A stretch of 64,000 nucleotides of DNA from Paludibacteraceae bacterium (GTDB lineage Bacteria > Bacteroidota > Bacteroidia > Bacteroidales > Paludibacteraceae): positions 1 to 64,000 of the forward strand of contig JAFPXH010000009.1 in assembly GCA_017394705.1 (NCBI GenBank), given 5' to 3'. The notes beneath the pieces are model-generated. The model was not told the origin of the DNA. It saw only the letters and a list, made by a program, of their open reading frames with translations, and did no database searches. How positions within the stretch are numbered: position 1 is the first letter of the stretch; every line of letters starts with the position of its first letter. Position numbers and translations under genes: made by a program. Below are positions 21,302 through 61,736 of the stretch, one piece after another.

Positions 21302-22017
21302 TGGCATCCGAAGGTTTTCAGTTCAAACAATTCTACATTGCCCATCATCGCTGCGCGATGAAAGTGGGCACAGACGGCGTGTTATTGGGCTGCTGGGCGC
21401 TGAGGGGTTATGGGTTACAGGTTACTGGTTATGGGAGGATTCTGGATGTCGGTACGGGGTGCGGATTGATAGCGCGAATGCTCATGCAGCGCTTTCCTGA
21501 GGCTGATGTAGAAGGCATTGATATCGACGAAGCGGCTGTGGAACAAGCCAAGGGGAATGGGGTACGTGCCTTTCAGGCACGCTTGCAGGATTGGACATCG
21601 GATATTGGACATTGTTACGACCTCATCGTCTCTAACCCTCCTTATTTTCAGAACAGTCTGAAGAACCCGGACCCCAGTCGTCAGGCGGCACGCCACACGG
21701 ACACACTCTCTTACGCCGAACTCCTCCGTCATAGCGCGCGTTTGTTAAGCGAAGACGGTCAGCTGGCAGTCATCCTCCCTGCTGACGCGGAAGAGGAGAT
21801 AATGGAACTGGCCAAGCAGAATGGACTGCTCCTTGTGCGCATTACGCGCGTTTATAGTAAGGAGAGCAAACCGGTAAGGCGAGTGCTCATGGCTTTTATG
21901 AAAGGGATTAGGGGAACTAAGTTTAGGGGATTAGAGGAAGACACACTCGTTCTGGAAGACGACAAAGGTGGCCGTTCCGCCGCCTACCAAGAATTAACAA
22001 AGGACTTCTACCTCTGA
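21301..22017 (+). CDS. trmN6: tRNA1(Val) A37 N6-methyltransferase (TrmN6/YfiC-like)
   Basis: SAM-dependent methylation of adenine 37 in tRNA-Val. The 238-residue protein has FxFKQFYIAHHRCAMKVGTDGVLLG at the N-terminus, the SAM motif ILDVGTGCGLIA and the catalytic motif SNPPYF, all typical of this family. Two in-frame repeat inserts occur. One (21403-21438, LRGYGLQVTGYGR) lies just before the SAM motif and one (21902-21938, KGIRGTKFRGLEE) lies near the C-terminus; both sit where relatives have short loops. The stop codon lies inside the hairpin at 21999-22032, shared with convergent rny. Confidence 0.9.
   Translation: MASEGFQFKQFYIAHHRCAMKVGTDGVLLGCWALRGYGLQVTGYGRILDVGTGCGLIARMLMQRFPEADVEGIDIDEAAVEQAKGNGVRAFQARLQDWTSDIGHCYDLIVSNPPYFQNSLKNPDPSRQAARHTDTLSYAELLRHSARLLSEDGQLAVILPADAEEEIMELAKQNGLLLVRITRVYSKESKPVRRVLMAFMKGIRGTKFRGLEEDTLVLEDDKGGRSAAYQELTKDFYL
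21403..21438. repeat. In-frame heptamer repeat (GGTTACA/GGTTATG) in trmN6
   Basis: Four to five 7-base units of GGTTAyN type, translated GYGLQVTGYG. Confidence 0.8.
21902..21938. repeat. In-frame 7-8 base repeat (GGATTAGG type) in trmN6
   Basis: Degenerate GGGATTAG/TTTAGGGG units, the same motif family as the intergenic arrays at 57-120 and 58439-58479, here translated GIRGTKFRGLE. Confidence 0.75.
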
Positions 22018-22032
22018 GGCAGAAGTCCTTTG
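21999..22032. terminator. Shared terminator of convergent trmN6 and rny
   Basis: AAAGGACTTCT pairs with AGAAGTCCTTT around CC...GG and a short loop. The trmN6 stop codon is in the loop region. It is followed by a heptamer array (GCTAATA units, about 22036-22058) before the rny stop. Confidence 0.75.
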
Positions 22033-22058
22033 TCGGCTAATAGCTAATAGTTAGCAGC

Positions 22059-23582
22059 TTATTTCGCCACATTGACTGCGCGAACTTCGCGAATAACAGT
22101 CACTTTGACCTGACCCGGATAAGTCATCTCATCCTGGATGCGTTTGGCCAAATCGAACGAGAGTAACTCGGTATCCTTGTCGGAAATCTTGTCTGCGCCT
22201 ACGATGACACGCAGTTCACGACCGGCCTGCAGCGCATAAGTCTTCACCACTCCGGGGAAGGACATGGCCATGTTCTCCAGGTCATTCAGACGCTTCACAT
22301 AACTCTCCACTATCTCGCGCCGAGCGCCCGGACGTGCACCGGAGATGGCATCACAAGCCTGAACGATAGGCGCAATAAGCGTCGTCATCTCGCATTCATC
22401 GTGGTGCGCACCCACGGCATTGCATATATCCGGTTTCTCGCCGTATTTCTCGCAAAGTTTCATACCCAACTCTGCGTGCGGCAGTTCGACATCTTCGTCC
22501 GCCACTTTGCCTATATCGTGCAACAGACCAGCACGGCGCGCGGCCTTGACGTTCAGGCCCAACTCACCGGCCATCGCGGCACAGAGGTTCGCCGTTTCAC
22601 GGGCGTGTTGAAGCAGGTTCTGACCATACGAAGAGCGGTATTTCATCTTACCAACCAGACGCACTAATTCCGGGTGAAGGCCATGCACGCCGAGGTCAAT
22701 CGTGGTACGCTTACCGGTCTCGATAATCTCCTCCTCTACTTGTTTGGTCACCTTGGCCACTACCTCCTCGATACGAGCCGGGTGGATACGACCGTCCTGT
22801 ACCAGTTGATGGAGCGCCAAACGGGCTATCTCGCGGCGCACGGGATCGAAAGCGGACAGAGTGATGGCCTCCGGAGTGTCATCTACGACAATCTCAACGC
22901 CCGTCGCTGCCTCCAAGGCGCGGATATTACGGCCCTCACGACCGATGATGCGACCTTTGACTTCGTCATTCTCAATATGGAAAACACTCACGGTATTCTC
23001 CGCCGCGGTCTCGGAAGCCACGCGTTGAATGGTCTGGATAATGATTTTCTTGGCCTCTTTGTTAGCCTCCAGACGCGCATTATCCATGATCTCGTTGATA
23101 TAGCTCATCGCGGCCGTTTTGGCTTCATCTTTCAGTGCTTCCACCAGTTGTTTCTTGGCTTCCTCGGCACTCATACCACTCAACTGCTCAAGCTGTTTCT
23201 CTGCCTGCTGATGGAGTTTTTCCACCTCTTGCTGCTTGTAATCAAGCGCTTGTTGGCGTTGCTCCACCTGTTGCGCACGTTGGTTCACTTCGTTGAGACT
23301 GCGTTGTACATCGCCCTGACGCTGGTTGAGTTGCTGCTCACGTTGCTGCAAGCGCTGCTCTTGTTGCTGTATGCGGCGGTCCTGCTCACGCACGGCATTG
23401 TCGTGCTCAAGCTTAAGGGCGATGAATTTCTCCTTTGCCTCAACAATCTTGTTTTTCTTCACCACTTCTGCCTCCTCGGCCGCCTTCTTCAGCAGACTGG
23501 CACCGATTAGACGAGCGATGAGATAGTAGCCACCGACTCCGACCAGGAGACCGACTACTCCACAAATAATTGCTGTAATCAT
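22059..23582 (-). CDS. rny: Ribonuclease Y
   Basis: A membrane-anchored endoribonuclease that starts mRNA decay. The 507 residues comprise an N-terminal membrane helix (1-25), a long Q/E/R-rich coiled coil (about 35-190), a KH domain with [15 protein letters not shown] (about 205-270) and an HD domain with LLHDIGK and the surrounding H residues (about 335-430). Length and order fit the family. It is the last gene of an apparent operon with zapA and a coiled-coil gene. Confidence 0.97.
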
Positions 23583-23628
23583 TGTTTATAAAATTTATTA
23601 ACTATTTAACGTCGCCTAAGCGACCATC

Positions 23629-23919
23629 TTAACTCTTTAACGCACGCAGCACCTCTTCATTCAGGTGTTTGAGTGCCTCCTCTACGGGCACAAGGCTCTT
23701 CTCGCGGGCATCAGACTGCAGTGACACCGCCACTTCCAGCGCCGTGTACATCCACAACTGCTCAGCCGAGGCGTTCGGACGCAACTTGAGGTAATACTGA
23801 TAACGTCTGTTCAGCAACTCGGCCGCTTTGCGGTAATTCGGTTCCTGATCGCGCGGCACCTCCAAACCCACACTGTGGGCATCCAAATGCAGATTAATAT
23901 GTTGCTTGTCCGAATTCAT
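23629..23919 (-). CDS. zapA: Cell division protein ZapA
   Basis: 96 residues. Small FtsZ-ring-associated protein: beta-strand start (HINLHLDAHSVGLEVPRDQEPNYRKAAELLNRRYQYY) followed by a helical dimer region. The pattern matches ZapA of Bacteroidota. It lies between a small coiled-coil gene and rny, the usual arrangement in this order. Confidence 0.85.
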   Translation of the reverse strand: MNSDKQHINLHLDAHSVGLEVPRDQEPNYRKAAELLNRRYQYYLKLRPNASAEQLWMYTALEVAVSLQSDAREKSLVPVEEALKHLNEEVLRALKS

Positions 23920-23925
23920 CTTTTG

Positions 23926-29626: not shown

Positions 29627-30102
29627 TGCGTACAGAAGAGGAATTGAAAGGCGTTACCTTGTTAGGTAACCAGCATACGCAGTATAGCGATGATTACAAT
29701 CCCGGCGTGCTGGAGACGTTTGAGAACAAGCACCCCGAGAATGAGTATCTCGTGACCTTCAACTGTCCGGAGTTCACTACCCTTTGTCCTAAGACAGGGC
29801 AACCGGATTTCGGACATCTGTACATCAGTTATATCCCCCGCGAACGGATGGTGGAGAGCAAGAGTCTCAAGCTCTATCTCTTCTCCTTCCGCAACCACGG
29901 AGATTTTCACGAGGACTGTGTGAATATCATCATGAAGGATTTGGTAGCGCTGATGGACCCGAAATATCTGGAGGTGACGGGCTATTTCATGCCCCGCGGC
30001 GGTATCAGTATCTATCCGTTTGCCAACTACGCTGATGCGAAGCATCAGCAACTAAAAGAGCAACGTCTCCGCGAACAGTTCGCACTAAACACGAAACGCT
30101 AA
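29626..30102 (+). CDS. queF: NADPH-dependent preQ0 reductase QueF
   Basis: Reduces 7-cyano-7-deazaguanine to preQ1 in queuosine synthesis. The 158-residue, single-domain (type I) form has the nucleophile cysteine in [19 protein letters not shown] (NADPH and substrate motif) and [22 protein letters not shown]. The start codon overlaps the preceding T9SS gene stop (TAATG). A CTAAAC heptamer array (30092-30131) follows before queC. Confidence 0.96.
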
Positions 30103-30131
30103 ACGCTAAACACTAAAAACGCTAAACACTA
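30092..30131. repeat. Heptamer tandem repeat (GCTAAAC/ACTAAAA)
   Basis: Five 7-base units between queF and queC, starting in the last codons of queF. A related array (GCTAACA/ACTAATA, 30781-30814) separates queC and queD. Confidence 0.85.
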
Positions 30132-30785
30132 ATGAAGGACTCATTAATCGTTCTCAGCGGAGGGTTGGACTCGACGACGATGCTCTACGAGTATCGCGAC
30201 CGAATCGGTATGGCGGTGTCGTTTCATTACGGCAGTAATCATAACGACCGGGAACTGGAGTTCGCCAAATTGCATTGCGAGCGGCTGGACATACCGCATA
30301 TGATTATTCGCCTGCCATTCATCAAACAGTTCTTCAAATCCTCGCTACTCGAAGGCGCAGAAGCTATTCCTGAAGGCAATTATGACGAAGAGAACATGAA
30401 ATCGACCGTTGTGCCGTTCCGTAACGGTATCATGCTCTCCATCGCGGCCGGTATTGCGGAGAATAATCACTTCCAGTATATCATGCTGGCGAACCATGCG
30501 GGCGACCATACTATCTACCCGGACTGCCGTCCGGAATTCGTCCATGCGATGAACGAGGCGGTCCAGGCCGGCACATGGAACGGCGTGCAACTACTCACGC
30601 CTTATACGCATATCACCAAGGCAGACATCGCCCGAAGAGGCAAAGCGATGGGTTTGGACTATGCCAAGACCTGGAGTTGCTACAAGGGTGGCGAACACCA
30701 CTGCGGTGTTTGCGGTACTTGCCGCGAACGAAAAGAAGCCCTCGCGCTCGCCGGCATTGAAGATCACACCATTTACGATAGCTAA
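30132..30785 (+). CDS. queC: 7-cyano-7-deazaguanine synthase QueC
   Basis: ATP-dependent conversion of 7-carboxy-7-deazaguanine to preQ0. 217 residues with the PP-loop LSGGLDSTT (8-16) and the zinc-binding C-terminal cysteines CGVCGTC. It is in line with queF and queD, with heptamer repeats as the spacers. Confidence 0.97.
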   Translation: MKDSLIVLSGGLDSTTMLYEYRDRIGMAVSFHYGSNHNDRELEFAKLHCERLDIPHMIIRLPFIKQFFKSSLLEGAEAIPEGNYDEENMKSTVVPFRNGIMLSIAAGIAENNHFQYIMLANHAGDHTIYPDCRPEFVHAMNEAVQAGTWNGVQLLTPYTHITKADIARRGKAMGLDYAKTWSCYKGGEHHCGVCGTCRERKEALALAGIEDHTIYDS

Positions 30786-30814
30786 CAACTAATAGCTAAC
30801 AACTAACAGCTAAC
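30781..30814. repeat. Heptamer tandem repeat (GCTAACA/ACTAATA)
   Basis: Five near-perfect 7-base units make up the whole queC-queD spacer, including the last queC bases. Confidence 0.9.
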
Positions 30815-31147
30815 ATGTACTACGTAGAGAAAAGAATAGAGATATCTGCAGCGCATAACCTAATGCTTTCTTATGAAAGCAAATGTGAGAACCTGCACGG
30901 CCATAATTGGATTATTGTGGTCTATTGCCGCGCCAAAGAGCTGAACCGAGATGGTATGGTGACGGACTTCACGCACATCAAAAAAGTGGTGAAGGACACG
31001 TTTGACCATAAGTATATCAATGAAGTGCTGGACGTCAATCCGTCGGCGGAGAATATCGCCAAATGGATTTGTGACCACGTAGAGAATTGCTATAAAGTGT
31101 CGGTTCAGGAATCCGAAGGCAACGTCGCTATCTACGAGAGGGATTAG
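30815..31147 (+). CDS. queD: 6-carboxy-5,6,7,8-tetrahydropterin synthase QueD
   Basis: Second step of queuosine-base synthesis from dihydroneopterin triphosphate. 110 residues. Zinc ligands are the histidine in SAAHNL and the pair in LHGHNW; the catalytic cysteine is in SKCENLHGH. It overlaps convergent queE by four bases at the 3' end. Confidence 0.95.
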   Translation: MYYVEKRIEISAAHNLMLSYESKCENLHGHNWIIVVYCRAKELNRDGMVTDFTHIKKVVKDTFDHKYINEVLDVNPSAENIAKWICDHVENCYKVSVQESEGNVAIYERD

Positions 31148-31782
31148 CGGAGTCCCACAATCTTGTGTAACTGCACACTCAAGCGCCAGAACGGGTGTGC
31201 GAGGATATAACGAACGGTCTCATCCAAGTTATCATTACTGTCGTTTTCCCATTCGTCTATTCCGCTTGTCATCAACCATTCGCCGGTATATCGCAAAGGC
31301 TGTAACATCCAATGTTCAGCCTTTAATTGTGTCCGCCAGATCTCCGGGTCATACGTTCCGGTAAACACTACCTTCACCTCATTCACACGCTTCAATGCTA
31401 ATGGCTGATGGCCTATGGCTGATGGCTCTTTCGGCGAACAAGTGATCCAGTCTATGCCCTCCGGGAGAGGAAAGGTGCCGTTGGTCTCGATGCAGATATA
31501 AAAGCCGGCGTCATGTAGCGCGTCAATAAGCGTTTTATCGACCTGCAGCGCCGGTTCGCCGCCTGTGAGCACACACATCTTCCGCCGCTCGTTGGGTACG
31601 TCGTATAAGTCCTTCGCCTCTTCAACGATTTGCTCGGCACTCATACTATGGTGCGCCGTAAAATCGGTGTCGCACCAAGGGCAATGCAGGTTACATCCGC
31701 TAAAACGCACAAAGACGGCGGGGATGCCGCTATGCGCACCCTCGCCCTGTAATGTAAAGAATATTTCGTTGACGCTGTACAC
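31144..31782 (-). CDS. queE: 7-carboxy-7-deazaguanine synthase QueE
   Basis: A radical-SAM enzyme making 7-carboxy-7-deazaguanine from QueD product. 212 residues. The iron-sulfur motif is CNLHCPWC with the preceding FSG, and GGEPALQ is a SAM-binding motif. An in-frame heptamer repeat (31398-31430) adds SAIGHQPLALKR-like residues in a loop after CSPKEP. It is on the opposite strand to queFCD but closes the same pathway. Confidence 0.95.
   Translation of the reverse strand: MYSVNEIFFTLQGEGAHSGIPAVFVRFSGCNLHCPWCDTDFTAHHSMSAEQIVEEAKDLYDVPNERRKMCVLTGGEPALQVDKTLIDALHDAGFYICIETNGTFPLPEGIDWITCSPKEPSAIGHQPLALKRVNEVKVVFTGTYDPEIWRTQLKAEHWMLQPLRYTGEWLMTSGIDEWENDSNDNLDETVRYILAHPFWRLSVQLHKIVGLR
31398..31430. 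repeat. In-frame heptamer repeat (GGCTGAT/GGCCTAT) in queE
   Basis: Four 7-base units translated on the minus strand as SAIGHQPLA. Confidence 0.8.
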
Positions 31783-45818: not shown

Positions 45819-46979
45819 TCAGACACAACGCTCGGCGTGAAAGAGTGTAGGTTTGCCGGAGATACGGCAACCGATGATAAAAGCTGTGCCTCCATCGCGG
45901 AGGTGCAGTTTTTTCTTGAGCTGGTCAGGTGTCAAAGGATAATTACGGACGAGAACGTTCGTATTAGGGATGGGTAATTGGCGATTGGCGATTTGTTCTT
46001 TAATCTGCCACACACGCCCGGGAAAATCGGGCACAAGCGTTTCCGAACAATAAAGATGCGTGTTAACGTCCAGTTTGTGCAGGCCAAACCGTTCTCCCAC
46101 TAACTTATAGGCCCCGGACTTGAGAATAGAAACGTTGGGTTCATAGAGATAAGCCCCCTCCAACTTCCCCTGAAAGGGGAGAGAAGAAGCGTCTCGTTCT
46201 TCTTCGCGGGTAAAAAGGAACGGTTTGTCCATTTTTGTCAAGTCTATCGCAGTAATCTTTCCCACTCCTCCGCTCAGTAAAAGCACTTCTTTCACTTCGT
46301 TCTTCACCGCCACTACATGTATATCCCATGCTACTTGCGAAAGGCTTGTTACCGCTTGCCTCAGGTCTAACATCGGCGATAGTTTAAGCATAAGTCGACC
46401 TTGGGGAGTGAGGTGCGACAAAAGGGATGGAAGGAGTTCAACCACATTGGGTGCACAATCCTCCATACGAAATACTTTTCCTCCATGACTATCTCTGCGC
46501 GCAGGATCTAAAAAAATCAAGTCATACCGTCCTTCGGACAGTAAGAATTCTTCGGCGGTACTGTTGTGGACAGAGACAGCACCTTTTATACTTTGGTTCT
46601 GCCCGCTTGGCCCCCTTTGTACATAAAAATTATGTGCGGCAATGCGGCATAACTCTTCGTTTTGCTCGACATAGTCGGTGTGTGCAAAATGTTCGCTCAG
46701 AAAATAGGTGTCCACGCCGTAACCGCCGGTGAGATCAAGACATTTACCATTTGAACATGTACCTTGTACGAGTAATGCTTTATACCTTGCGGTGAGTTCT
46801 GACGAGCATTGCTCGCAACTCAGGCGCACAGGATACCACCAGTCTTCTATGGACGCAAAAGTAGGCAGTTTGTCGGCAGTCCGTTCACGGCCTTCAACCT
46901 GCTGTAACATCCACCGCCATTCGGCGTCTGAGAGGTGCTTGTATTTATCGCGCTGGAACGCTAAGTCTGCTGCCCGCAT
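45819..46979 (-). CDS. SAM-dependent methyltransferase with THUMP-like C-terminus
   Basis: 386 residues. The Rossmann SAM motif CLDLTGGYGVDTYFLSE is near 95 and LIFLDPARRDS near 175, a pattern of a Bacteroidota methyltransferase family with a THUMP-like C-terminal domain. The target (probably RNA) is unknown. Two repeat inserts lie in frame: a palindromic element (46152-46185, SSLPFQGKLEGA) and a heptamer repeat (45967-45996, IANRQLPIPN). Its start overlaps the end of the spoIID-like gene by 35 bases. Confidence 0.85.
   Translation of the reverse strand: MRAADLAFQRDKYKHLSDAEWRWMLQQVEGRERTADKLPTFASIEDWWYPVRLSCEQCSSELTARYKALLVQGTCSNGKCLDLTGGYGVDTYFLSEHFAHTDYVEQNEELCRIAAHNFYVQRGPSGQNQSIKGAVSVHNSTAEEFLLSEGRYDLIFLDPARRDSHGGKVFRMEDCAPNVVELLPSLLSHLTPQGRLMLKLSPMLDLRQAVTSLSQVAWDIHVVAVKNEVKEVLLLSGGVGKITAIDLTKMDKPFLFTREEERDASSLPFQGKLEGAYLYEPNVSILKSGAYKLVGERFGLHKLDVNTHLYCSETLVPDFPGRVWQIKEQIANRQLPIPNTNVLVRNYPLTPDQLKKKLHLRDGGTAFIIGCRISGKPTLFHAERCV
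45967..45996. repeat. In-frame heptamer repeat (ATTGGCG) in the methyltransferase gene
   Basis: Three to four 7-base units translated on the minus strand as QIANRQLPIP. Confidence 0.75.
46152..46185 (-). repeat. In-frame palindromic element, copy in the methyltransferase gene
   Basis: On the minus strand a CCCCTttcAGGGG palindrome is followed by AAGTTGGAGGGGGCT. It is sense-oriented to the gene, in the frame that gives SLPFQGK. Confidence 0.75.
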
Positions 46980-48006
46980 AGTAGTATTTCAATATCTCCT
47001 CGTATGTTTTTCCTTCGGAACCCATCACCGCCGCACCGATTTGGCAAAGTCCTGCACCGTGCCCCCAACCGTGACCTGAAAGTTGAAAGGTAAAAGTGGA
47101 GAGTTGAGAGTTGTAAGATTTCTCGACCTCAAACCAGGAACTATAGAGGCAAGTACGTGACAGCCATAAGCGGATTTTCAGCTCTTTGCCAATTATTTCC
47201 GTATGCTTCGTCCCGACGATTTTCAGTTCATAAATACGTCCCGATGCCCCTCTTTTCAAAGGAATAAGGTCGATTATTTCCCCGAAGTCTATGCCTGATT
47301 TGGTGCGAATAATCTCACTCAGTTCTTCAGCAGTATAGTTCACTTGCCAGTCGTGAAAATCTTTGGTCTCCTGATCGTAGTCATTGAGTACTAACCGTAG
47401 TACTTTAGGCGAAGGAGATTTACACCAATCGCATTGGACGGATTGAATATACGGGACATCAATATCTTCCCAGCAAGTCCGCCATATTTCGGTTCGTCCG
47501 CCACAACACTTGTAGTAACGGCAGTCACATATCTCATCTCCGTACATCAACACTTGTCCGGCAGTTGCACGCACGGCTTCCACGGCGCGTTCGCTCATTC
47601 GGCGGAGACCTTCATAACGCTGACAATGGTCATCGGCACAAACATCAAAACCTTCATGGTTCGGTTTCTGCATCGCCCGGATAGCCCACGAGCGGCTGAT
47701 GACCGCGTGCGCTTTGAGCAACTCCATCGGACTATTCGCATTCATCTCTGATGAAATGACAGAACAGATATAATCTTCGAGTTCAATCGTGTTGATAGCT
47801 ACTTGCCATGGTTCCCCTCTTTTTAAAGAGGGGTTAGGGGCTGGCTTAATCTCTAATGTACCGGCGAACTCCTGGTCTTCATGGCGGTCCCAATGAAAAC
47901 CGATACCGATACGCACATTCTTCAGCACGAAAGTGTTCTCGCGCTGTTCGAACTCAATGTGCGGAGCAGTGAGAATTCCTACTTTAATCGTGCGAGCAAC
48001 TCCCAT
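46945..48006 (-). CDS. SpoIID/LytB-domain protein
   Basis: 353 residues. SpoIID-type proteins cleave or bind peptidoglycan glycan strands. Visible are [34 protein letters not shown], typical of the domain, the cysteine-rich [11 protein letters not shown], and the C-terminal [15 protein letters not shown]. No signal peptide is seen, so a cytoplasmic or unconventional location must be considered. Two repeats are in frame: a palindromic element (47814-47846, reverse orientation, [10 protein letters not shown]) and a heptamer array (47077-47118, [11 protein letters not shown]). Overlaps both neighbours. Confidence 0.85.
47077..47118. repeat. In-frame heptamer repeat (AGTTGAG/AGTTGAA) in the spoIID-like gene
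   Basis: Degenerate 7-base units; minus-strand translation [12 protein letters not shown], just before the conserved GHGWGHG motif. Confidence 0.8.
47814..47846 (+). repeat. Palindromic element in the spoIID-like gene (antisense orientation)
   Basis: On the plus strand CCCCTCTtttttAAAGAGGGG is followed by TTAGGGGCTGGCT. The gene runs on the minus strand, so this copy is inverted relative to it, yet the frame stays open. Confidence 0.8.
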
Positions 48007-49412: not shown

Positions 49413-50168
49413 TTATCCCAAGGGATTGAATATATCCATGCCGAAAGCAGAGGTGAAAGCATTCGCTTTTTTGAGGTTCTCTGCGGTGTCGAGTTGGACG
49501 CCCTGGGCATGCGGGGACATTAGAAGGATACGGTCAGAGAGCGCGAGTGCCAAATCCAATTCGTGAGTAGAGATAAGCACCGTTTTGCCTTGTTCGTGCG
49601 CCAGTTGGCGTAAGAGCCGTAATATCAATATTCTATGTGGCAAATCCAGGTGTGCCGTAGGTTCGTCAAGCAGGATGATAGGAGTTTGCTGTGCGAGCGC
49701 TTTGGCGATTAATATACGCTGCTTCTCACCATCGGAATGGGCGTTGAAGAATGATGAAAGGTGACAGGTGACAGGAGAATGGAATCCCACCTGCTGTAAC
49801 GACTCGGTGATGATGCGTTCATCTTCTTCCGTCAGTCCGCCAAGGAAAGAAGTGTACGGATAACGGCCCATGGCCACCACGTCATGCACGGTGGTATTAT
49901 CCATCGAAAGGCGCTCAGTAAGAACGAGTGCCACACTCTTTTCCGGTCTGTATTCTGTATTCTGTATTCTGTATTCTCCTTCTAATGGTGGTTGGAGACC
50001 TGCGAGCGTGCGGAGAAGGGTTGACTTTCCACAGCCGTTGGGACCGAGCATGCAGACCATCTCACCTTTATGGAGTGAGAAATCCAAATCGGTCTGTACG
50101 CTGTATTCTGTACTCTGTACTTTGTACCCGATCGTCAGTTTATTCGTAGAAATAGATACGCTGGACAC
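49413..50168 (-). CDS. ABC transporter ATP-binding protein (FecE/BtuD-like), orphan
   Basis: 251 residues. Walker A is GPNGCGKST, the signature segment is AHSDGEKQR, Walker B is IILLDEPTAHLD and the H-loop is LISTHELDL, all of the iron-siderophore/cobalamin type. No permease or binding protein is adjacent. Three heptamer repeats lie in frame: 50093-50130 (KVQSTEYSVQT, near the N-terminus), 49947-49978 (YRIQNTEYR, after the Walker A helix) and 49753-49780 (SPVTCHLSSFF, before the signature). Motifs remain intact. Overlaps the alr stop by 29 bases. Confidence 0.9.
   Translation of the reverse strand: MSSVSISTNKLTIGYKVQSTEYSVQTDLDFSLHKGEMVCMLGPNGCGKSTLLRTLAGLQPPLEGEYRIQNTEYRPEKSVALVLTERLSMDNTTVHDVVAMGRYPYTSFLGGLTEEDERIITESLQQVGFHSPVTCHLSSFFNAHSDGEKQRILIAKALAQQTPIILLDEPTAHLDLPHRILILRLLRQLAHEQGKTVLISTHELDLALALSDRILLMSPHAQGVQLDTAENLKKANAFTSAFGMDIFNPLG
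49753..49780. repeat. In-frame heptamer repeat (GGTGACA) in the ABC ATPase gene
   Basis: Three to four units of GGTGACA type, minus-strand translation SPVTCHLSS. Confidence 0.75.
49947..49978. repeat. In-frame heptamer repeat (CTGTATT x4) in the ABC ATPase gene
   Basis: Four perfect CTGTATT units, minus-strand translation YRIQNTEYR. One of the cleanest arrays in the window. Confidence 0.9.
50093..50130. repeat. In-frame heptamer repeat (CTGTACT/CTGTATT) in the ABC ATPase gene
   Basis: Four to five units related to the array at 49947, minus-strand translation KVQSTEYSVQT near residue 17-27. Confidence 0.85.
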
Positions 50169-51975
50169 GGCGGGAGACGGATGTTAAGATTTCGTATGTG
50201 ATGGTACCTAATTTGGCGGCAAGTTCTTCAAGCGGCATATGTTCTCCGAACACTTCGGCTATATCTCCTGGACGGGCGTCAGCGCCGGTTACATCAATCA
50301 TAGCCTGGTCCATGCAGACGTTCCCGACCACGGGGCAACGCTTTCCGCGCACCCACACTTCGCCGCCGTAATTGGAGAAACGACGGTCAAAACCATCGGC
50401 ATAACCGATTGGGATGACAGCAATAGTGCGGTCTTCCGTCAGTTGGGTATGACGTCCGTAACCGATGGTCTCGCCGGCTTTGACCGTTTTGACGGATAGG
50501 ATAGTCGTTTCAAGTGTACACACGTTGCGCAGTTGGGCGCCCGCGAAAGAGAAGCCGTAAAGACCGATACCGAGGCGGCACATATCAAATTGATATTGCG
50601 GGAAACGCTCAATGCCGGCGGAGTTACAGATGTGCTTGAGAATCCTGACTCCTGATTCCTGACTCCTGACTCCTCTAATCAACTCTTCGGCGCAAGTATC
50701 GAAATAACGGATCTGCGAGAGGGTGAAGTCGTCGAACTGCGGCTCGTCCGAACCGGCGAGATGGGAGAAGACAGAGGCTACGCGGACTGCTTTCTGGTGC
50801 GTCAGGCGGTCAATGAGCCAGGGTATATCTTCTTTATAGAAACCCAGACGATGCATACCTGAGTCTATTTTGATATGAATCGGCACGCTCTCCAGCCCCT
50901 TGGCTTCAGCGGCCGCAATAACGGTCTTAAGCGACTGATGGCTATAGACGTTCGGTTCGAGATTATTCTCAAGAATCAGATCCATTGCCGCCACTTCCGG
51001 ATCCATGATGATGATGGGGAGTGTTATCCCTGCTCGGCGCAGTTCAACTCCTTCGTCTGCCACCGCGACGGCTAAATAGTCCACGAGTCCCGAAGCCTGC
51101 AGAGCTTTGCTCACCTCAACACTTCCTGCGCCATAGGCGAAGGCTTTGACCATGCAGGTCAGTTTGGTTTCCGGTTTCAGTTTGGAGCGGAAATAACGGA
51201 CGTTCTCCACGAGTGCCGAGAGGTTCACTTTGAGAACGGTCTCATGCGTCTGCTGGAGGATACGCGAAGCGATGGTCTCTTCGTCGTATCCGAGAGTGCG
51301 CATGACCGCGGCACAGGTACGCACGTTTTGATGCGTAGGGTCTTCGATAACGGCCTTCGAGTGCACAAAGAGTTTCATCTTCTCTTCGCGTTTCTGTTCA
51401 AGGGAAATAAAATTCTCGTCATGCTCATGACCGATATAGGTGATTACACCTATAGTCGGGCGAATGATGCGTTCCAATTTCTCCATCTCTCCGGGCTGCG
51501 AGATACCGGCCTCGAAGATAGCAATCGTCTTGACTCCTGACTCCTGACTCTTGACTCCCGCCAGCTGCCAAACGCTCAGAGGCACACCTATCTGGGAGTT
51601 GTAGGACTTGGGCGAACGAACGATGGTATAATCATCTTTGAGGAGTTGGTACAGCCACTCCTTGACGACGGTCTTACCGTTGGAACCGGTTATGCCGATG
51701 ACCGTTCCGTTGAACTGCGAGCGGACATACGCCGCAAGTGTTTGCAGCGCTGCGAGCGCATCGCCTGTAACGAACGCACGCACTCCTTTCGCCTGCAACT
51801 CCGGGATATACCTGGCACCATCGTTCTTCTCCGTTTTGATAGCAAAGAAAAGCGTTTGTTCGGCTTGCTCCTTCAGTTGACGGCTGTCCGTCAAGAGATG
51901 ACGAATGTCCAGATCATCCTCTCCGGATACTTGCGCGACAGAGCCTATGACTTGTTTGATTTCCGATAGTTTCAT
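50140..51975 (-). CDS. alr: MurF-Alr fusion with a strongly shortened MurF part; alanine racemase
   Basis: 611 residues from the ATG at 51975 (MKLSEIKQVIGSV). The Bacteroidota MurF-Alr fusion is usually about 820 residues. The N-terminal MurF domain and P-loop GITGSNGKTVVKEW (near 95) are kept, and TIGVITYIGHEHDENF is still seen. But the sequence jumps from KLFVHSKAVIED to HQNVRTCAAVMRTLGYDEE and then straight to the racemase start (ETVLKVNLSALVENV, near 245), so most of the MurF central and all of the C-terminal domain are missing. The Alr domain is complete: PLP lysine in MVKAFAYGAG and the tyrosine in GYGRHTQL. Two heptamer repeats (GVKSQESGVK, GVRSQESGVR) lie in frame. MurF activity is doubtful. 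Confidence 0.9.
   Translation of the reverse strand: MKLSEIKQVIGSVAQVSGEDDLDIRHLLTDSRQLKEQAEQTLFFAIKTEKNDGARYIPELQAKGVRAFVTGDALAALQTLAAYVRSQFNGTVIGITGSNGKTVVKEWLYQLLKDDYTIVRSPKSYNSQIGVPLSVWQLAGVKSQESGVKTIAIFEAGISQPGEMEKLERIIRPTIGVITYIGHEHDENFISLEQKREEKMKLFVHSKAVIEDPTHQNVRTCAAVMRTLGYDEETIASRILQQTHETVLKVNLSALVENVRYFRSKLKPETKLTCMVKAFAYGAGSVEVSKALQASGLVDYLAVAVADEGVELRRAGITLPIIIMDPEVAAMDLILENNLEPNVYSHQSLKTVIAAAEAKGLESVPIHIKIDSGMHRLGFYKEDIPWLIDRLTHQKAVRVASVFSHLAGSDEPQFDDFTLSQIRYFDTCAEELIRGVRSQESGVRILKHICNSAGIERFPQYQFDMCRLGIGLYGFSFAGAQLRNVCTLETTILSVKTVKAGETIGYGRHTQLTEDRTIAVIPIGYADGFDRRFSNYGGEVWVRGKRCPVVGNVCMDQAMIDVTGADARPGDIAEVFGEHMPLEELAAKLGTITYEILTSVSRRVQRIYFYE
50641..50677. repeat. In-frame heptamer repeat (GACTCCT) in the alr part
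   Basis: Four to five GACTCCT/GATTCCT units, minus-strand translation GVRSQESGVR. Confidence 0.9.
51531..51560. repeat. In-frame heptamer repeat (GACTCCT) in the MurF part
   Basis: Four GACTCCT/GACTCTT units, minus-strand translation GVKSQESGVK. Same heptamer as at 50641 in the same gene. Confidence 0.9.
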
Positions 51976-51996
51976 GTGTTCATGACTTTTGCGGTG

Positions 51997-52027
51997 CAAA
52001 ATTACAATTTTTTTTTGACATATACAA
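51997..52027 (-). promoter_or_regulatory. Promoter of the murF-alr gene
   Basis: The minus strand reads TTGT (52024-52027), a 19-base spacer and TAATTTTG (51997-52004). T9 and A8 tracts on either side would pair and place the -33 box in a loop. The leader is 21 bases to the ATG. Confidence 0.75.
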
Positions 52028-52050
52028 GTTTTTACAAAAAAAAGCATCCC

Positions 52051-53700: not shown

Positions 53701-55641
53701 ATGGAATATCAATACATCAATAAGATTGATTCGCCGGCAGACTTGAAGAAGTTGAAGGTAGAGGAACTGCCTGCGGTATGTGCGGAATTGCGGGATTTTA
53801 TCATCGAGACGCTGAGCAAGAATCCCGGTCATCTGGGTTCGTCATTAGGTACGATTGAGTTGACCGTGGCGTTGCATTATGTATTTGATACGCCGAAGGA
53901 CAAACTGGTCTGGGACGTAGGGCATCAGGCATATGCGCATAAGATTCTCACCGGTCGCCGTGACCGTTTCCACACCAACCGTCAGTTCAAGGGTTTGAGT
54001 CCGTTCACTAACCCGGCAGAGAGTGAGTATGACGCCTTCATCGCGGGACACGCCTCTAACTCTATCTCTGCCGCGCTGGGAATCGATGTAGCTGATCACT
54101 TTGCTGAAAGTCAAAAGTCGATGGTCGATAGTCAAAAGACCAACGTAGTAGCCATCATTGGTGACGGGGCGATGACGGGCGGTTTGGCCTTCGAGGGCTT
54201 GAACAACACATCGATGGACAAGAACAACCTGCTGATTATCCTGAACGACAACAACATGGCCATTGACCCGCTGAAGGGCGGTATAACGCAGTACCTGGTG
54301 GACCTGACGACGAGCGCAATGTACAATAAATGGCGTTGGCGTTTGTATCAAGTGGCCGCCAAACTGCATTTGGTCAACGAGCGCAAACGGCAGGCTCTTT
54401 TACGGAGGAACAACAACCTGAAAGCGATGCTGAGTAAGCAGCCGAATAATATCTTCACCAGTTTGAACATCCGCTATTTCGGTCCGACGGACGGGCATGA
54501 CGTAGAAGGCTTGGTACGTATCCTGAGCGAGATAAAGAACCACCGCGGGCCGCGTGTGCTGCATATCATCACAAAAAAAGGCAAGGGATACGCGCCGGCA
54601 GAGAACGACCAGACGGTTTGGCATGCGCCGGGAGAATTCAATGTCACCACCGGCGAACGCCAGAGTGACAAATTACAAATTACAAATGACCAATTACAAA
54701 CTCCTCCGCTATGGCAGGAGGTGTTCGGCGAGACGCTGCTGGAGTTGGCGAAGAAGAACGAAAAAATAGTCGGTATCACTCCTGCTATGCCGTCGGGTTG
54801 CTCGATGAGTATCATGCAGAAAGAGCTTCCCGAGCGGGTGTTCGATGTAGGCATCGCCGAAGGTCACGCCGTGACATTCAGTGCTGGTTTGGCCAAGGCG
54901 GGTATGCTGCCTTACTGCAATATCTACTCCACTTTCCTTCAGCGGGCGTACGACAATATTGTTCACGATGTGGCATTGCAGAACCAGCATGTTGTTTTCT
55001 GTATCGACCGCGCGGGCATCGTAGGCAACGATGGTGCAACACACCACGGTCTATTGGACTTGACGTACCTGCGGCCTATTCCTAACATGCAGATATGCGC
55101 ACCTCGCACAGCGGAGGACCTGCGTGAAATGCTTATGTTAGCCGAGAGATTAGATGGACCGGTGGCGATCAGGTATCCGAGAGGACGCTGTCCTTTGGAA
55201 GAACCCAGAGCCAAGAACCAAGAACCGGAAGGCTCTGTCCTGGTCCAATACGGCAAAGGCGTGAAATTGCGCGATGGAAAAGACTTTGCAGTATTGACCA
55301 TAGGTGCAATTGGCACTCCGATGAGTGAAGCCATCGAAACAAGCGGTCGCAGCATCGCTCACTACGACATGCGGTGGGTCAAACCCCTGGACGAGGAGAT
55401 TTTGCACGAAGTGGGCAAGAAATACAAAACCATCGTGACAGCCGAAGACGGCCTGATAGCCGGTGGCTTCGGCAGCGCGGTGCTGGAATGGATGGCCGAA
55501 CACGGTTATACTCCGCGCGTCATCCGACTCGGCGTCAATGACCAGTTTGTGGAACACGGGTCCACTAAAGAATTGTATCATCTATTAAAATTAGATAAAG
55601 AAGGATTATGCGAATCGTTATTGCAGGTGCCGGTGAAGTAG
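53701..55641 (+). CDS. dxs: 1-deoxy-D-xylulose-5-phosphate synthase
   Basis: First step of the MEP isoprenoid pathway: pyruvate plus glyceraldehyde-3-phosphate to DXP, with thiamine diphosphate. 646 residues. [14 protein letters not shown], the TPP motif [16 protein letters not shown], the catalytic glutamate in [17 protein letters not shown] and RYPRG are present. Three heptamer repeats lie in frame in surface or linker positions: 54106-54140 ([11 protein letters not shown]), 54666-54700 ([11 protein letters not shown], between the first two domains) and 55204-55230 (PRAKNQEPE). Overlaps trkA by 34 bases. Confidence 0.97.
54106..54140. repeat. In-frame heptamer repeat (AGTCAAA/GGTCGAT) in dxs
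   Basis: Five 7-base units translated [11 protein letters not shown], immediately before [13 protein letters not shown]. Confidence 0.85.
54666..54700. repeat. In-frame heptamer repeat (ATTACAA) in dxs
   Basis: Five ATTACAA/ATGACCA units translated [11 protein letters not shown] in the interdomain linker. The same heptamer occurs between genes at 63056-63080. Confidence 0.9.
55204..55230. repeat. In-frame short heptamer repeat (CCAAGAA) in dxs
   Basis: About three units translated RAKNQEPE after the RYPRG motif. Confidence 0.6.
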
Positions 55642-58479: not shown

Positions 58480-59820
58480 ATGCGGCCGTATAGAGTTTTT
58501 CTTTTTGTTTTGGCTTGTTTAGGAGTGCTGGCAGTGCTATGCGTAGTGTTACCGCATGAGATAGTGATAGGTGAGCGCACTCTGCGCTGGCCTACCCTGG
58601 CTGAGGTGTTTGGAACGGAAGAAGCCTACACCCGCCCCCTCACTGAAGTGGAGGAGGAGAATATAACCATTCCTGACACCTTACCTTCTCCTGACACCAT
58701 TCCGTCCCTTCCAGAAAAGCCCGAGGAGAGACTTGTTATCCCCAAAGTAAAGGTGGACTCCACCAGCGACAGCCGTATCTATCTGAGTGCGTTCTATGCT
58801 TCGCTGGCAGAGGCGGGCGCACGCACGGTACGTGTGATGCATTACGGCGACAGTCAGATAGAAGAGGACCGAATGACGCAACAAATACGCCAGATACTGC
58901 AAGACCGTTACGGCGGTCGCGGTGCAGGTCTGATGCCTTTGGCACAGACGATTCCCAGTTTGACCGTCCGTCAAGAGTTATGGATGAGCGGTCGCCGTGT
59001 GAACCCGGCGCAAGGTCCGAGACGGTATATGGTACATAGTTTCAAGCGTGACCAACGTGCAGACGGTTTATACGGGCCGATGGGACAGATGGTGTATATG
59101 GCGGACAGTCTGGTAAAGGGAAGTGAAGAGATAATGGCCGTTTGTACTCCGTTGGACGGACGTGCGCATTACACGCGCTGGCAGGTCTTTGCGGACGACT
59201 CAATTGATTATACGTTTGCCGGCGACACTGTGTATCTGCGCGGCAAAGGAGCCGTTTACGGTCTCTCGCAAGAGAGTTCGACCGGCATTATTGTAGATAA
59301 CATCCCTCTGCGCGGATGTCTGGGCACGGTGTTCACCAAGATGGACAATAATCAGTTACAGCGTTTCTACCGCGAGCAGCGGGTACGGCTGATTATCATG
59401 CAGTTCGGAGGTAATGCTATTCCTTCGAACCGCAATCCGGGCACTATAGGGGCTATTGTCAGCGGCTTACGTGACCAAGTTCGCTATTTGCAGCATTGTG
59501 CGCCGGAGGCAAGTATATTATTCATCGGGCCGAGTGACATGCTTACACAAACAGATGGTGAGTGGCAGACTTATCCGATGGTGCCGTATATGGACAAACT
59601 GCTGCGAAAGATGGCATTGGAGGAAGGCATTGCTTATTTTAGTCTGTACCGATGGATGGGCGGCGCCGGTAGTATGGTGCGCTGGCAGGAGGTAGGTTTG
59701 GCGGGCAGCGACGGCGTTCATTTCACCCGCGCCGGCGCACGCAAGGCCGGTAATGCCGTAGCGAACTGGATTTTAGAAGGTATAGATCAGGCGCAAAGCG
59801 CAGCCACAACACAGTTGTAA
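58480..59820 (+). CDS. Periplasmic SGNH-hydrolase-like protein
   Basis: 446 residues with an N-terminal membrane anchor or signal (MRPYRVFLFVLACLGVLAVLCV). A P/T/E-rich linker follows, then an SGNH fold: block I HYGDSQIEEDR (nucleophile Ser near 125), a middle block with QFGGNAI and the last block GSDGVHFTRAG (Asp-His). It directly precedes an MBOAT acyltransferase gene, the pairing seen in polysaccharide or peptidoglycan O-acetylation systems, so it is likely the transferase or esterase partner. Confidence 0.85.
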   Translation: MRPYRVFLFVLACLGVLAVLCVVLPHEIVIGERTLRWPTLAEVFGTEEAYTRPLTEVEEENITIPDTLPSPDTIPSLPEKPEERLVIPKVKVDSTSDSRIYLSAFYASLAEAGARTVRVMHYGDSQIEEDRMTQQIRQILQDRYGGRGAGLMPLAQTIPSLTVRQELWMSGRRVNPAQGPRRYMVHSFKRDQRADGLYGPMGQMVYMADSLVKGSEEIMAVCTPLDGRAHYTRWQVFADDSIDYTFAGDTVYLRGKGAVYGLSQESSTGIIVDNIPLRGCLGTVFTKMDNNQLQRFYREQRVRLIIMQFGGNAIPSNRNPGTIGAIVSGLRDQVRYLQHCAPEASILFIGPSDMLTQTDGEWQTYPMVPYMDKLLRKMALEEGIAYFSLYRWMGGAGSMVRWQEVGLAGSDGVHFTRAGARKAGNAVANWILEGIDQAQSAATTQL

Positions 59821-59831
59821 CAATTAGCATT

Positions 59832-61736
59832 TTGAACTTCTTACACCACATATTTGCCTTTAATGAGGATAGCCCGCTGCTTTTCACGCAGTTCTATTTC
59901 TGGGCGTTCTTCGCGCTGGTCTTTGCGGTTTTTGCACTGATCTTGGAATGGCCAATGACCAATCACCAATCAGCAATCAGCAATCGCAGATTGCATCTCC
60001 GGAACGTGTACCTGCTGTTTGTCAGTTGGTTTTTCTACTACAAGACCAGTGGTTTGTTTCTGCTTATACTGGCGTTCGTGACCATCAGCGACTGGCTGAT
60101 TGCCGGCAGAATAGTCAAGAGTTCAGATTCAAGAGTCAAAAGGTTCTTGCTTTGCCTTTCCGTGACCATTGATTTGGGGCTTTTGGCTTATTTCAAGTAC
60201 GCATATTTCTTCACGAACATGATCAATGACCTGTTCGGCACAGGTTTCCGCGTATTCGATATCTTCGCGTATGTGGGCAACGGTTTCGCCAATGCGGGGC
60301 GGTTCAGCGTAGATACGATTGTGCTACCGGTGGGTATATCGTTTTATATATTCCAAGTCATCTCGTACACGGCGGATGTCTTCCGCGGGCGGATACGGCC
60401 GGTGAAGAATATATTGGACTTCGGTTTCTACGTTTCTTTCTTTCCTCAGTTGGTGGCAGGTCCTATCGTGCGTGCGGAGGAGTTTATTCCGCAGTTATAC
60501 AAGCCATACCGCCTGAGCCGCCGATGGTTCGGTGTGGCGGTATTCTGGATACTCAATGGCCTGGCGAAGAAAATTATCATGTCCGATTATTTAGCGGTGA
60601 ATCTGATTGACCGCGTATTCGACAACCCGCTGTTGTTCTCGGGTTTCGAGAACCTGTTTGCGCTGTTTGCGTACTCGTTGCAGGTCTATGCGGACTTCTC
60701 GGGATACACGGATATAGCCATCGGCATTGCGATGCTAATGGGTTTCTATCTGCCGATGAACTTCAATTCGCCGTATAAATCGCAGAGCCCGCAGGAGTTC
60801 TGGCGGCGATGGCACATGTCGCTCGGCCGATGGCTGAAGACTTATCTCTATATCCCGTTGGGAGGAAACAGGCGTATCGGGTTCGGCACCTATTTCTGGT
60901 GGAGTCTGATTGCTTTTGTGTCCGCAGCTCTGACCGGTTGGTGGTGGATCCTTATTCCGTTTGGTGTTTTCATATGTATTGTGGCGGTGGTTAACTCCTC
61001 TCCTCTAAGGGAGAGGTTGGGAGTAGGCTCTCTTAAACTGCTCTACTCCAATCTCAACTCTTTCATCACTCAGGTGTTAGGTGGTTTATGGCATGGCGCG
61101 AGTTGGAACTTCATTATCTGGGGAGGTATCAATGGTATCGGTATGATCGTTGAAAAGATTTGGCGGGAGATGAACTGGCATTGGCGTTTTGCATGCATGA
61201 CGCTCCTGACGGCGGGGCTCTGTGTCGCAGACTATCTGACGAATATGCCCGTCTGGCGTTTGTTTGCTGTCTGGGCGGCTATCATATGGGTCGTTACAGC
61301 TGTGCGGTATATTTATTTCCTTTGCGAAGGGGCTGAGAATAAGTTCACTCAAGCCATGGGTTCGGCTTGGGCTATAGCACAAACCTTTACGTTTATCACC
61401 TTCACGCGTCTGTTCTTCCGGAGCAGCAGTAACCTCGACCCTGCGACGGCTAACAAGGTAGCATGGGAGACAGCGAAGAACATGGTGAACCAGATTGGAG
61501 GAGCTTGGAACAATGCCATTATCCCTGACTTTCTCTGGAACTACAGATGGGTGGTGGCGATGTTCATTGCCGGCATGGTCATTCACTGGTTGCCCACATC
61601 ATGGAAGAGGCGTTACCGACTATGGTTCAGCGCAATGCCGTTGTGGCTGATGGTCGGAGCCGTTGCCGTGGCGATTATTGTCATTTATCAGTTCGTCTCC
61701 GCAGAGATGCAACCGTTTATCTATTTCCAGTTCTAG
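59832..61736 (+). CDS. MBOAT family O-acyltransferase
   Basis: 634 residues from a TTG start (MNFLHHIFAFNEDSPLLFTQFYFW), which matches the usual N-terminus of such Bacteroidota proteins; no ATG is suitably placed. About ten membrane helices. The conserved SPQEFWRRWHMSLGRWLKTYLYIPLGG and the active histidine in GGLWHGASWNFIIWG are present. It moves acyl groups across the membrane for the SGNH partner upstream. Three repeats lie in frame: heptamers at 59949-59988 and 60115-60142 and a palindromic element at 60994-61033. Confidence 0.92.
   Translation: MNFLHHIFAFNEDSPLLFTQFYFWAFFALVFAVFALILEWPMTNHQSAISNRRLHLRNVYLLFVSWFFYYKTSGLFLLILAFVTISDWLIAGRIVKSSDSRVKRFLLCLSVTIDLGLLAYFKYAYFFTNMINDLFGTGFRVFDIFAYVGNGFANAGRFSVDTIVLPVGISFYIFQVISYTADVFRGRIRPVKNILDFGFYVSFFPQLVAGPIVRAEEFIPQLYKPYRLSRRWFGVAVFWILNGLAKKIIMSDYLAVNLIDRVFDNPLLFSGFENLFALFAYSLQVYADFSGYTDIAIGIAMLMGFYLPMNFNSPYKSQSPQEFWRRWHMSLGRWLKTYLYIPLGGNRRIGFGTYFWWSLIAFVSAALTGWWWILIPFGVFICIVAVVNSSPLRERLGVGSLKLLYSNLNSFITQVLGGLWHGASWNFIIWGGINGIGMIVEKIWREMNWHWRFACMTLLTAGLCVADYLTNMPVWRLFAVWAAIIWVVTAVRYIYFLCEGAENKFTQAMGSAWAIAQTFTFITFTRLFFRSSSNLDPATANKVAWETAKNMVNQIGGAWNNAIIPDFLWNYRWVVAMFIAGMVIHWLPTSWKRRYRLWFSAMPLWLMVGAVAVAIIVIYQFVSAEMQPFIYFQF
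59949..59988. repeat. In-frame heptamer repeat (CAATCAG) in the MBOAT gene
   Basis: Five CAATCAN units translated MTNHQSAISNR, in the loop after the first membrane helix. Confidence 0.9.
60115..60142. repeat. In-frame heptamer repeat (TCAAGAG) in the MBOAT gene
   Basis: Four degenerate units translated VKSSDSRVKR in the next loop. Confidence 0.7.
60994..61033 (+). repeat. In-frame palindromic element in the MBOAT gene
   Basis: CTCTCCtctaagGGAGAG is followed by GTTGGGAGTAGGCT; translated SSPLRERLGVGS. Sense-oriented and in the same frame as the coaE copies. Confidence 0.85.

Follow-up and report, generated by a model that had tools for sequence, protein, structure and literature searches.

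Degenerate heptanucleotide arrays recur in gene gaps and protein loops of a gut Paludibacteraceae lineage

The 64,000-nucleotide stretch analyzed here (the window: bases 1–64000 of contig JAFPXH010000009.1 of a Paludibacteraceae bacterium, within the 1.196 Mb, 71% complete assembly GCA_017394705.1, hereafter G000) carries many short tandem arrays of seven-base units whose words change from place to place, between genes and in frame within conserved genes such as dxs, which encodes 1-deoxy-D-xylulose-5-phosphate synthase. Heptamer repeats are unusually active in the lineage to which this genome belongs, a gut group of Paludibacteraceae. The reading that we prefer, with a probability of roughly 0.5, is that these are degenerate heptanucleotide arrays, usually of three or four full units, of the same kind as the long simple sequence repeats (long SSRs) and the short tandemly repeated repetitive (STRR) sequences, as the heptamer repeats of cyanobacteria are called; they would arise by slippage of units together with copying of segments and be kept where they do no harm.

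The relatives used for comparison (L numbers) were found through dxs and are nearly all metagenome assemblies, deposited mostly as Paludibacteraceae or uncultured Bacteroidales. The named loci collected in this way are treated as the presumed genus set, one of them being a Candidatus Colicola, and the hosts in their titles, where given, are ruminants (goat, sheep, cattle, yak, buffalo, and deer), horse, and pig. Tandem repeats were listed by Tandem Repeats Finder (TRF), and the period at each place was scored by matching at lags 5–11.

Period seven is strongly preferred, whatever the word. Arrays of this period have a density of 17.2 per 100 kb over the window, as compared with 10.2 over 400 kb from the rest of its genome, 15.2 in 20 congeneric genomes (one stretch each), and 3.2 in stretches from 20 other families (309 kb), against 0–0.1 in dinucleotide shuffles; the highest density of any other period is 4.7, 2.0, 3.5, and 0.6 in these four samples, respectively. 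Thirteen of the 16 other-family arrays come from two genomes, L097 and L098, the latter being the richest of these stretches and having its arrays in gaps between long open reading frames (ORFs). Across 78 named loci (1,262,744 bases), 349 arrays have period 7, as compared with 2 of period 6, 28 of period 8, 29 of period 9, 40 of period 11, and 34 of period 15, the array density ranging from zero (nine loci) to 102 per 100 kb with a median of 22.7. The window has 16 arrays of period 7 or 14, and their average number falls to 4.3 when the ORF codons are exchanged synonymously and to 3.8 when codon order is shuffled (30 shuffles of each kind); since this residue is about the content of the unshuffled non-coding part, codon shuffling removes essentially all coding arrays. 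An initial annotation of this DNA had proposed a period-7 signal to be judged against other lags and codon-preserving shuffles, and lag 7 exceeds both. In this excess of seven-base tandem units over chance and over units of other lengths, the arrays resemble STRRs and long SSRs. They are short, 296 of 402 measuring 24–35 bp (arrays above 60 bp excluded), and 239 of 321 de-duplicated arrays hold three or four complete units. Unlike the repeats of Calothrix or TAACTGA, for which a small number of fixed words in each genome is described, the G000 sample holds 35 word classes in 55 arrays. Farther afield, a search for three copies of GTYRAAA across Bacteroidota matched 22 of 247 genomes and 12 of 122 genera; the reversed pattern (16 of 247 genomes) is no null for this search because it is itself a heptamer word.

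In the window, TRF returned 63 rows, some overlapping, 25 of them with period 7. Period seven "every time", as the initial annotation had it, slightly overstates the case: lag 7 is best at 13 of the 16 places named there (scores of 10.0–24.5, with the other lags at 4.0 or less), but place 15113 has period 8 (10.5 against 5.5 at lag 7), and places 21902 (4.0 at lag 7, 5.5 at lag 8) and 60115 (6.0 at lag 7) are too weak for assignment. The common period without a common sequence is borne out, the units differing from site to site, and the host frames indeed stay open, their ORFs having the expected Pfam domains. Neighboring arrays sometimes have one word (49947 and 50093; 50640 and 51528). The features are as follows, the last five, outside genes or at gene junctions, being additional to those first listed.

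15111..15157: period-8 array (ATTTTCAC) in the outer-membrane receptor ORF 14609–17260, − strand (TRF, lag scores)
21405..21435: GGGTTAC array in the methyltransferase ORF 21301–22017, + strand (TRF period 7; lag-7 score 12.5; MTS domain)
31397..31427: GCTGATG array in the radical-SAM ORF 31144–31782, − strand, initially annotated as queE (TRF, Pfam, lag score)
45965..45993: short ATTGGCG array in ORF 45819–46979, − strand, PG_1098 ferredoxin-like/THUMP-like (lag-7 score 10.0)
47077..47117: TGAAAGT array in the SpoIID-domain ORF 46945–48006, − strand (TRF, Pfam, lag score)
49745..49778: TGACAGG array in the ABC ATPase ORF 49413–50168, − strand (Pfam, lag score)
49947..49977: perfect TCTGTAT array of 4.4 copies in the same ABC ATPase ORF (TRF, 100% matches; lag-7 score 24)
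50093..50127: TCTGTAC array, a near-copy of the 49947 word, in the same ABC ATPase ORF (TRF, lag score)
50640..50674: TCCTGAC array in murF-alr, 50140–52047, − strand (TRF, lag score)
51528..51558: TGACTCC array, the word as at 50640, in murF-alr (TRF, lag score)
53701..55641: dxs, + strand, host with four insert-prone loops (Pfam, comparison with 2o1s, structure model)
54103..54140: dxs loop 1 insert, degenerate AGTCAAA/AGTCGAT array (lag-7 score 10)
54668..54700: dxs loop 2 insert, ACAAATT array (TRF, lag score)
55199..55226: dxs loop 3 insert, AAGAACC array (TRF, lag score)
59947..59985: CCAATCA array in the MBOAT ORF 59832–61736, + strand (lag-7 score 24.5)
60111..60142: doubtful degenerate array in the same MBOAT ORF (lag-7 score only 6.0)
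86..118: AACCGCT array outside listed ORFs of at least 100 aa (TRF, ORF list, lag score)
3781..3814: GTGTATG array between ORFs (3591 and 3810) (TRF, ORF list, lag score)
30083..30132: CACTAAA array at a gene junction (ORF end 30102, next start 30132) (TRF, ORF list, lag score)
30778..30815: AGCTAAC array at a gene junction (30785/30815) (TRF, ORF list, lag score)
63048..63074: AAATTAC array at the boundary of two ORFs (63056/63084) (ORF list, lag score)

Arrays occupy both gene gaps and genes. In 464 kb of G000 (the window plus the sample from elsewhere in the genome, with ORFs of at least 90 aa counted as coding), 31 arrays are coding (419 kb), while 22 are non-coding and 16 lie at gene edges (45 kb), so that 31 of 69 are coding by number and the gaps are several times denser per base. 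The contrast drawn by the initial annotation with cyanobacterial STRRs, which lie mainly between genes, is thus weaker than first stated: many arrays do sit in genes, but per base these arrays too lie mainly between them.

Inside genes, the arrays keep to loops, as had been proposed. In dxs, all 117 arrays called in 79 genomes fall in four loops (21, 41, 23, and 32 at loops 1–4, with 12, 20, 17, and 20 distinct word classes); 62 of the 79 genomes carry one or more, as against none after codon-order shuffling of dxs. All four sites are gaps against the solved DXS structure 2o1s, which we take to be the Escherichia coli enzyme; the gap at site 4 is of merely 2 residues, and the window Dxs protein has no insert there. 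In a structure model of this protein of medium confidence (mean predicted local distance difference test score, pLDDT, of 68), residues 140–144, 323–332, and 501–512 score below 50, and sites 1, 3, and 4 fall between predicted elements or at their margins, whereas site 2 overlaps a helix call (321–328). From anchor to anchor, three of the sites span 2–30, 4–27, and 0–24 residues in 91 genus sequences, as compared with 5–9, 7–10, and 5–6 in 22 sequences from other families. Over eight genes, 201 of 225 arrays touch indel columns, which make up 5.3% of residues, an enrichment that is partly circular because the inserts themselves create such columns.

That the inserts are specific to the lineage holds at most of the sites compared and fails at two; orthologs of trmN6 and queE were absent from the fetched loci, and the comparison of loop lengths covers dxs and the host genes that follow. 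Besides dxs, the murF-alr loops at 50640 and 51528 measure 0–25 and 4–30 aa in the genus (n = 37 each) and 8 and 4 aa in 9 of 9 other-family sequences, and the MBOAT loop at 59947 measures 0–131 aa in 84 genus sequences and 1–2 aa in 5 from other families. By contrast, all five other-family sequences have the same length (10 residues) at MBOAT 60111, and at the SpoIID site, where 15 of 23 genus sequences are at least 5 aa shorter than the 14 aa of the window, none of the four other-family sequences is shorter (14–31 residues). The loop at 45965 in ORF 45819–46979 varies from 2 to 14 aa among 27 genus sequences, and at the ABC ATPase positions 49745 and 50093 no genus sequence out of 33 falls short by 5 aa or more, which argues that arrays or loops of equal length are common there in the genus. 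The 635 aa of the murF-alr ORF contain Mur ligase middle and alanine racemase domains, Pfam found no Mur ligase C-terminal domain, and the open frame is 769–837 aa long in 12 of 14 other-family best matches.

The dxs loops receive palindromic and hairpin inserts as well. Counted by pattern in the 79 genomes, the CCCTCAAGGGAGGG type stands alone at loops 2, 3, and 4 in 3, 8, and 7 genomes; the CCGAAGGACGG type occupies loop 4 in 7 genomes, the GGCTTCGCCTG type loops 1, 2, and 3 in 7, 2, and 3 genomes, and the AATGATG type loop 3 in 10. Families of short palindromic or hairpin inserts, for instance CCCCGACCCTCCCCTCAAGGGAGGGAG and GTCTGTCAGTCCGAAGGACGG, lie in frame in the dxs loops of L189–L268, and in L220 a hairpin sits inside a heptamer array. 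Since such inserts use the same loops, these are permissive places and not targets of heptamers.

At these fixed sites, arrays turn over fast. Counting dxs sites with an array in either genome (the pairs being non-independent), we found 3 gains or losses and 4 cases of the same word above 0.93 identity, 12 gains or losses, 2 word changes, and 4 unchanged cases at 0.88–0.93, and 1699 gains or losses, 689 different words, and 99 same words at 0.76–0.80. The 49 pairs above 0.80 identity yielded 26 clean gaps touching arrays (12 classed as coding and 14 not), nine of which are multiples of 7 (P = 0.008 against 1/7), meaning that, as in STRRs, copy number in some cases changes by whole units between relatives. 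Whole-unit steps in frame are +21 (L190/L247) and +42 (L201/L199), and those outside genes are +7, +14, and +21; as for frame-breaking unit changes like those of phase-variation loci, the pairs compared show steps of 14 and 7 near one gene end beside the in-frame 21 and 42. Because steps of 7 and 14 are non-coding while 21 and 42 are in frame within genes, the in-frame position most likely reflects selection rather than targeting.

The units themselves have a grammar. Interior mismatches between neighboring units amount to 0.08–0.13 in four phases and 0.18–0.21 in three (null 0.12–0.16), each unit combining four better-conserved bases with three that vary more, a pattern that selection on codon positions should not make because 7 and 3 share no factor. 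Some word classes also end at a preferred base. Counting both strands, and with locations separated solely by 350-bp bins relative to dxs so that some may be orthologous, GTCGAAA arrays end after AAAG at 24 of 26 locations (null 0.28, P = 9e-12), whereas the preference is milder (P from 0.004 to 0.02) for GGGTTAC (after GGG in 7 of 11, null 0.22), CAATGAC (after CAAT in 11 of 18, null 0.33), and AATTCAA (after AATT in 14 of 27, null 0.31), and weak or absent for GAATTGA and ACAAATT. A slightly different caller without de-duplication placed 21 of 30 GTYRAAA ends in the named loci at the AAAG base, and all seven GTYRAAA arrays in the sampled parts of G000 end at one base; among 11 such arrays from other Bacteroidota, that base is the end of 3 and the following one of 4. 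Over all classes, AAAG is the 3′ end of 30 of 321 de-duplicated arrays against 7.1 if ends were uniform, a figure that uneven variability alone can about double.

Whole degenerate arrays recur as exact copies at unrelated places in one genome, which qualifies the initial view that words differ site by site: the units do differ, yet degenerate arrays recur. Exact stretches of at least 26 bases at separate places in one genome fill 18 rows, two of which are runs of N, and the exact array copies measure 26–35 bp. Dxs loops 1 and 2 of L214, 549 bp apart, share 34 bp including the Glu-Arg codons of loop 2; in L201, 34 bp of dxs loop 3 also lie just past the stop of another gene 3,205 bp away (ORF end 12672); and L247 has 35- and 33-bp exact copies. 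Exact shared stretches of at least 20 bp are found in 28.8% of same-class pairs less than 1.2 kb apart (n = 59), 16.1% of pairs farther apart in a locus (n = 124), and 6.7% of pairs from other species and other places (n = 1501). With labels permuted within loci (54 dereplicated species, 257 arrays), same-class pairs number 25 below 600 bp against 12.5 expected and 17 at 600–1200 bp against 11.0, and are at or under expectation beyond. Words of one class also make up 12.1% of pairs between different G000 pieces (4.1% when letters are shuffled) and 7.1% of pairs between G000 and other species (3.0%), this null not keeping the reading stop-free.

For 29 arrays, a relative has an empty site. In 27 of these the junction repeat measures 0–4 nt, while the remaining pair (11 and 24) are duplications, and the exact word is missing from the empty site in 24. 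Together with the exact copies of 26–35 bp and the one class whose end is fixed at 24 of 26 places, these missing words make simple local slippage seem insufficient. According to the reading that we prefer, strand slippage or template switching on an anchor of 3–4 bases recurring every 7 bases would start words and lengthen them; many new arrays would be segments already formed, copied over from a different array of that genome or possibly from another species by short-tract recombination, and selection would remove those that break a frame or fold, leaving junctions and loops. The common period with different words supports the earlier suggestion of a process rather than one mobile element. 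This account covers birth, copying, and siting; the step of seven itself is outside its reach, and for that step the literature, in the portions available, offers a polymerase-footprint idea.

Exchange between species was considered for six same-site pairs whose arrays are at least 0.93 alike although the genes are less than 0.82 identical. These arrays lie within short identical tracts (for example, about 24 codons in L199/L216 and 20 in L268/L195). More generally, dxs genes of relatives less than 0.80 identical have identical codon runs (16–33) scattered along the gene, and of the runs of at least 16 codons between distant species, 113 of 123 are outside the four dxs sites. Their scatter points to ordinary short-tract recombination or conserved codon choice, that is, either mosaic short-tract exchange or strong codon bias in conserved stretches.

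Several observations weigh against the preferred reading. Of the 26 clean array gaps, 17 have lengths not divisible by 7; among the 12 counted as coding by the script, 6 are not divisible by 3, most of the latter lying, by eye, at gene ends or stop-start junctions. The exact word does occur at 5 of the 29 empty sites (17%, against 3% for control words), so that local slippage makes some arrays; ten more sites match it at 6 of 7 positions, best matches average only a little higher than for controls (5.69 against 5.27), and, as the empty-site relatives are only 76–94% identical in dxs, seeds may have decayed. In a flank-extension test, the flanks of the arrays themselves matched the word by 4.36, while array-free species scored 0.64 at the same site against a background of 0.55, an ambiguous outcome that would fit overwriting or alignment error. 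Gene conversion specific to arrays between species is not supported, with 10 of the 123 identical runs at array sites (14% of residues). Ten of the 25 same-class pairs below 600 bp come from L191, where some belong to a single interrupted array, and when L191 and pairs below 100 bp are left out the count at 100–1200 bp is 23 against 17.7 (P = 0.087); near-neighbor word sharing is therefore no more than suggestive, and its weakness without L191 lowered our confidence in the preferred reading and raised that in pure slippage. Nine of the 78 loci are free of arrays. Furthermore, Ku was found in none of 61 genomes, which led us to reject Ku end joining as the cause, and loss of recJ was likewise rejected because recJ is present in 57 of the 61, though not found in G000 at its 71% completeness.

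Purely local replication slippage, starting from chance repeats of 3–4 bases spaced by 7 and favored by the grip of the polymerase, with the harmless products kept, is a serious but somewhat doubtful alternative. It would account for the whole-unit gaps, for the words present at empty sites, and for the X(yX)n appearance of arrays expected from slippage between short direct repeats, and the word sharing that speaks for copying is weak without L191; the available text of PMC4679880 and PMC4692102, moreover, reports heptamers as the commonest class in most genomes and proposes slippage. Set against this are the 24 empty sites without the exact word, the exact copies of degenerate arrays at unrelated sites, and the end base that one class holds almost invariably. 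We consider it unlikely, if worth stating, that a single, hitherto unrecognized copying process of Bacteroidota produces and relocates heptamer cassettes by re-annealing on a 3–4-base anchor (AAAG, AATT, CAAT, or GGG), adding about three variable bases per cycle, and halting on the anchor once three or four rounds are complete, with its products pasted elsewhere in the genome; if true, it would be a loop-length mutator for essential enzymes.

The fixed end phases of GTCGAAA, GGGTTAC, CAATGAC, and AATTCAA, the common end base of all GTYRAAA arrays in the sampled parts of G000, and the exact copies would also be expected of tiny mobile elements, each word class being a copy-and-paste cassette family with a defined 3′ end and a hypothetical enzyme. 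We judge this quite improbable, given the very many words, the weak or missing end preference of GAATTGA and ACAAATT, the less constant end base in other Bacteroidota, and the possible orthology of the binned locations. The junction repeat never exceeds 4 nt at 27 of the 29 junctions, which are compatible with a duplication of up to 4 nt, and no terminal inverted repeat was seen by eye, so that neither clear target-site duplications nor the inverted repeats of a transposon or miniature inverted-repeat transposable element (MITE) are apparent. No Y1 (RAYT) transposase, the enzyme that moves REP elements, was found in G000 (71% complete), while 10 of 24 congeners have matches, 8 above the family cut-off, the best at 34.6 bits, an outcome that neither favors nor discounts RAYT/REP mobility; overall, the candidate enzymes searched (Y1, Ku, and recJ) give no clear lead. 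That arrays are kept as useful changes of loop or frame, as in selected loop diversity or phase variation, is very improbable: they do concentrate in loops of conserved enzymes, but the hosts are housekeeping genes (dxs and murF-alr), density is highest outside genes, and other insert families share the loops. An assembly or binning artifact might come to mind because metagenome assemblies supply the window genome and almost every named relative; it is hardly credible with arrays in 69 of 78 separately deposited loci from several deposited sets, some exactly common to different species, and sitting in open frames.

Other repeats accompany these arrays. Period 8 occurs in the window at 53 and 407 (TRF), besides 15114, and loop 3 of the L025 dxs has a period-8 array (GAGTTTAG) where other species have period 7. 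A 37-bp unit is repeated 2.4 times at 11757–11845 (92% match, TRF); units of 37 bp are also known among the long tandemly repeated repetitive (LTRR) sequences of cyanobacteria. At 9937–10041 lies a 16/32-bp tandem array (CGGTCTTACAGCGCAG) with 2.8 perfect 32-bp copies. Finally, a dispersed similarity of 40–60 bp with TTTGC and GCAAAATTACA occurs near gene ends, at 51970–52034 and elsewhere in the genome (a 2-kb query including this stretch gave 19 further genome matches, most of them to it); it may presumably be shared promoter sequence of the Bacteroidetes type.

The old question of why bacteria favor seven-base repeats becomes testable in this lineage: with dozens of species whose arrays are born, moved, and lost at fixed places in the same genes, it gives direct access to birth, step size, donors, and ends. 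Essential enzymes also prove tolerant of repeated inserts at one and the same loop; protein loops vary through these inserts, and alignments and gene calls need corresponding caution. In the open-licence literature searched, we found no report of heptamers inserted in loops in Bacteroidales, nor of words changing per species in fixed loops, copied degenerate arrays, or fixed ends, and, among the entries listed, no paper naming the mechanism of short-patch double illegitimate recombination.

Both the dominance of heptamers among long bacterial repeats and the presence of heptamer elements within genes have been published before. In the available portions of PMC4679880 and PMC4692102, which relay Mrazek 2007, period 7 is the commonest long unit of bacterial repeats and slippage is proposed, the heptamer excess having been noted since 2007 with its cause merely proposed. 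Those long SSRs share with the present arrays the period and the frame constraint on coding repeats; in the lineage of the window, by contrast, arrays are degenerate, short, and in protein loops of most genomes compared, words change between species at one site, and some arrays are copied between sites. PMC4692102, as far as its available text goes, describes the heptanucleotides of Calothrix and the GGGGATT/GGGAATC heptamers of Nostoc and Xanthomonas, arrays that are mainly intergenic like ours and, in Xanthomonas, differ in length and sequence among close relatives; our G-rich word GGGTTAC resembles its G-quadruplex heptamers, whereas here dozens of words occur, many in genes and none fixed in a genome. 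The TAACTGA repeats of Beggiatoaceae, cyanobacteria, and five Bacteroidetes (PMC4679880, available portions) are likewise heptamer direct repeats, sporadic over phyla and mostly intergenic, but have one fixed word, often near start codons, in place of many. Geobacter metallireducens has four-fold heptanucleotide elements, some inside genes, with one consensus word read as regulatory RNA, and the accessible part of that paper (PMC2700814) describes no change of word between species at one site. The palindromic elements of Rickettsia (PMC10969869, available portions) similarly place short DNA in frame in unrelated genes; they are palindromic, about 150 bp long, and family-specific, whereas the heptamer arrays show no such palindromic consensus, being tandem, mostly 24–35 bp, and with no inverted repeats seen.

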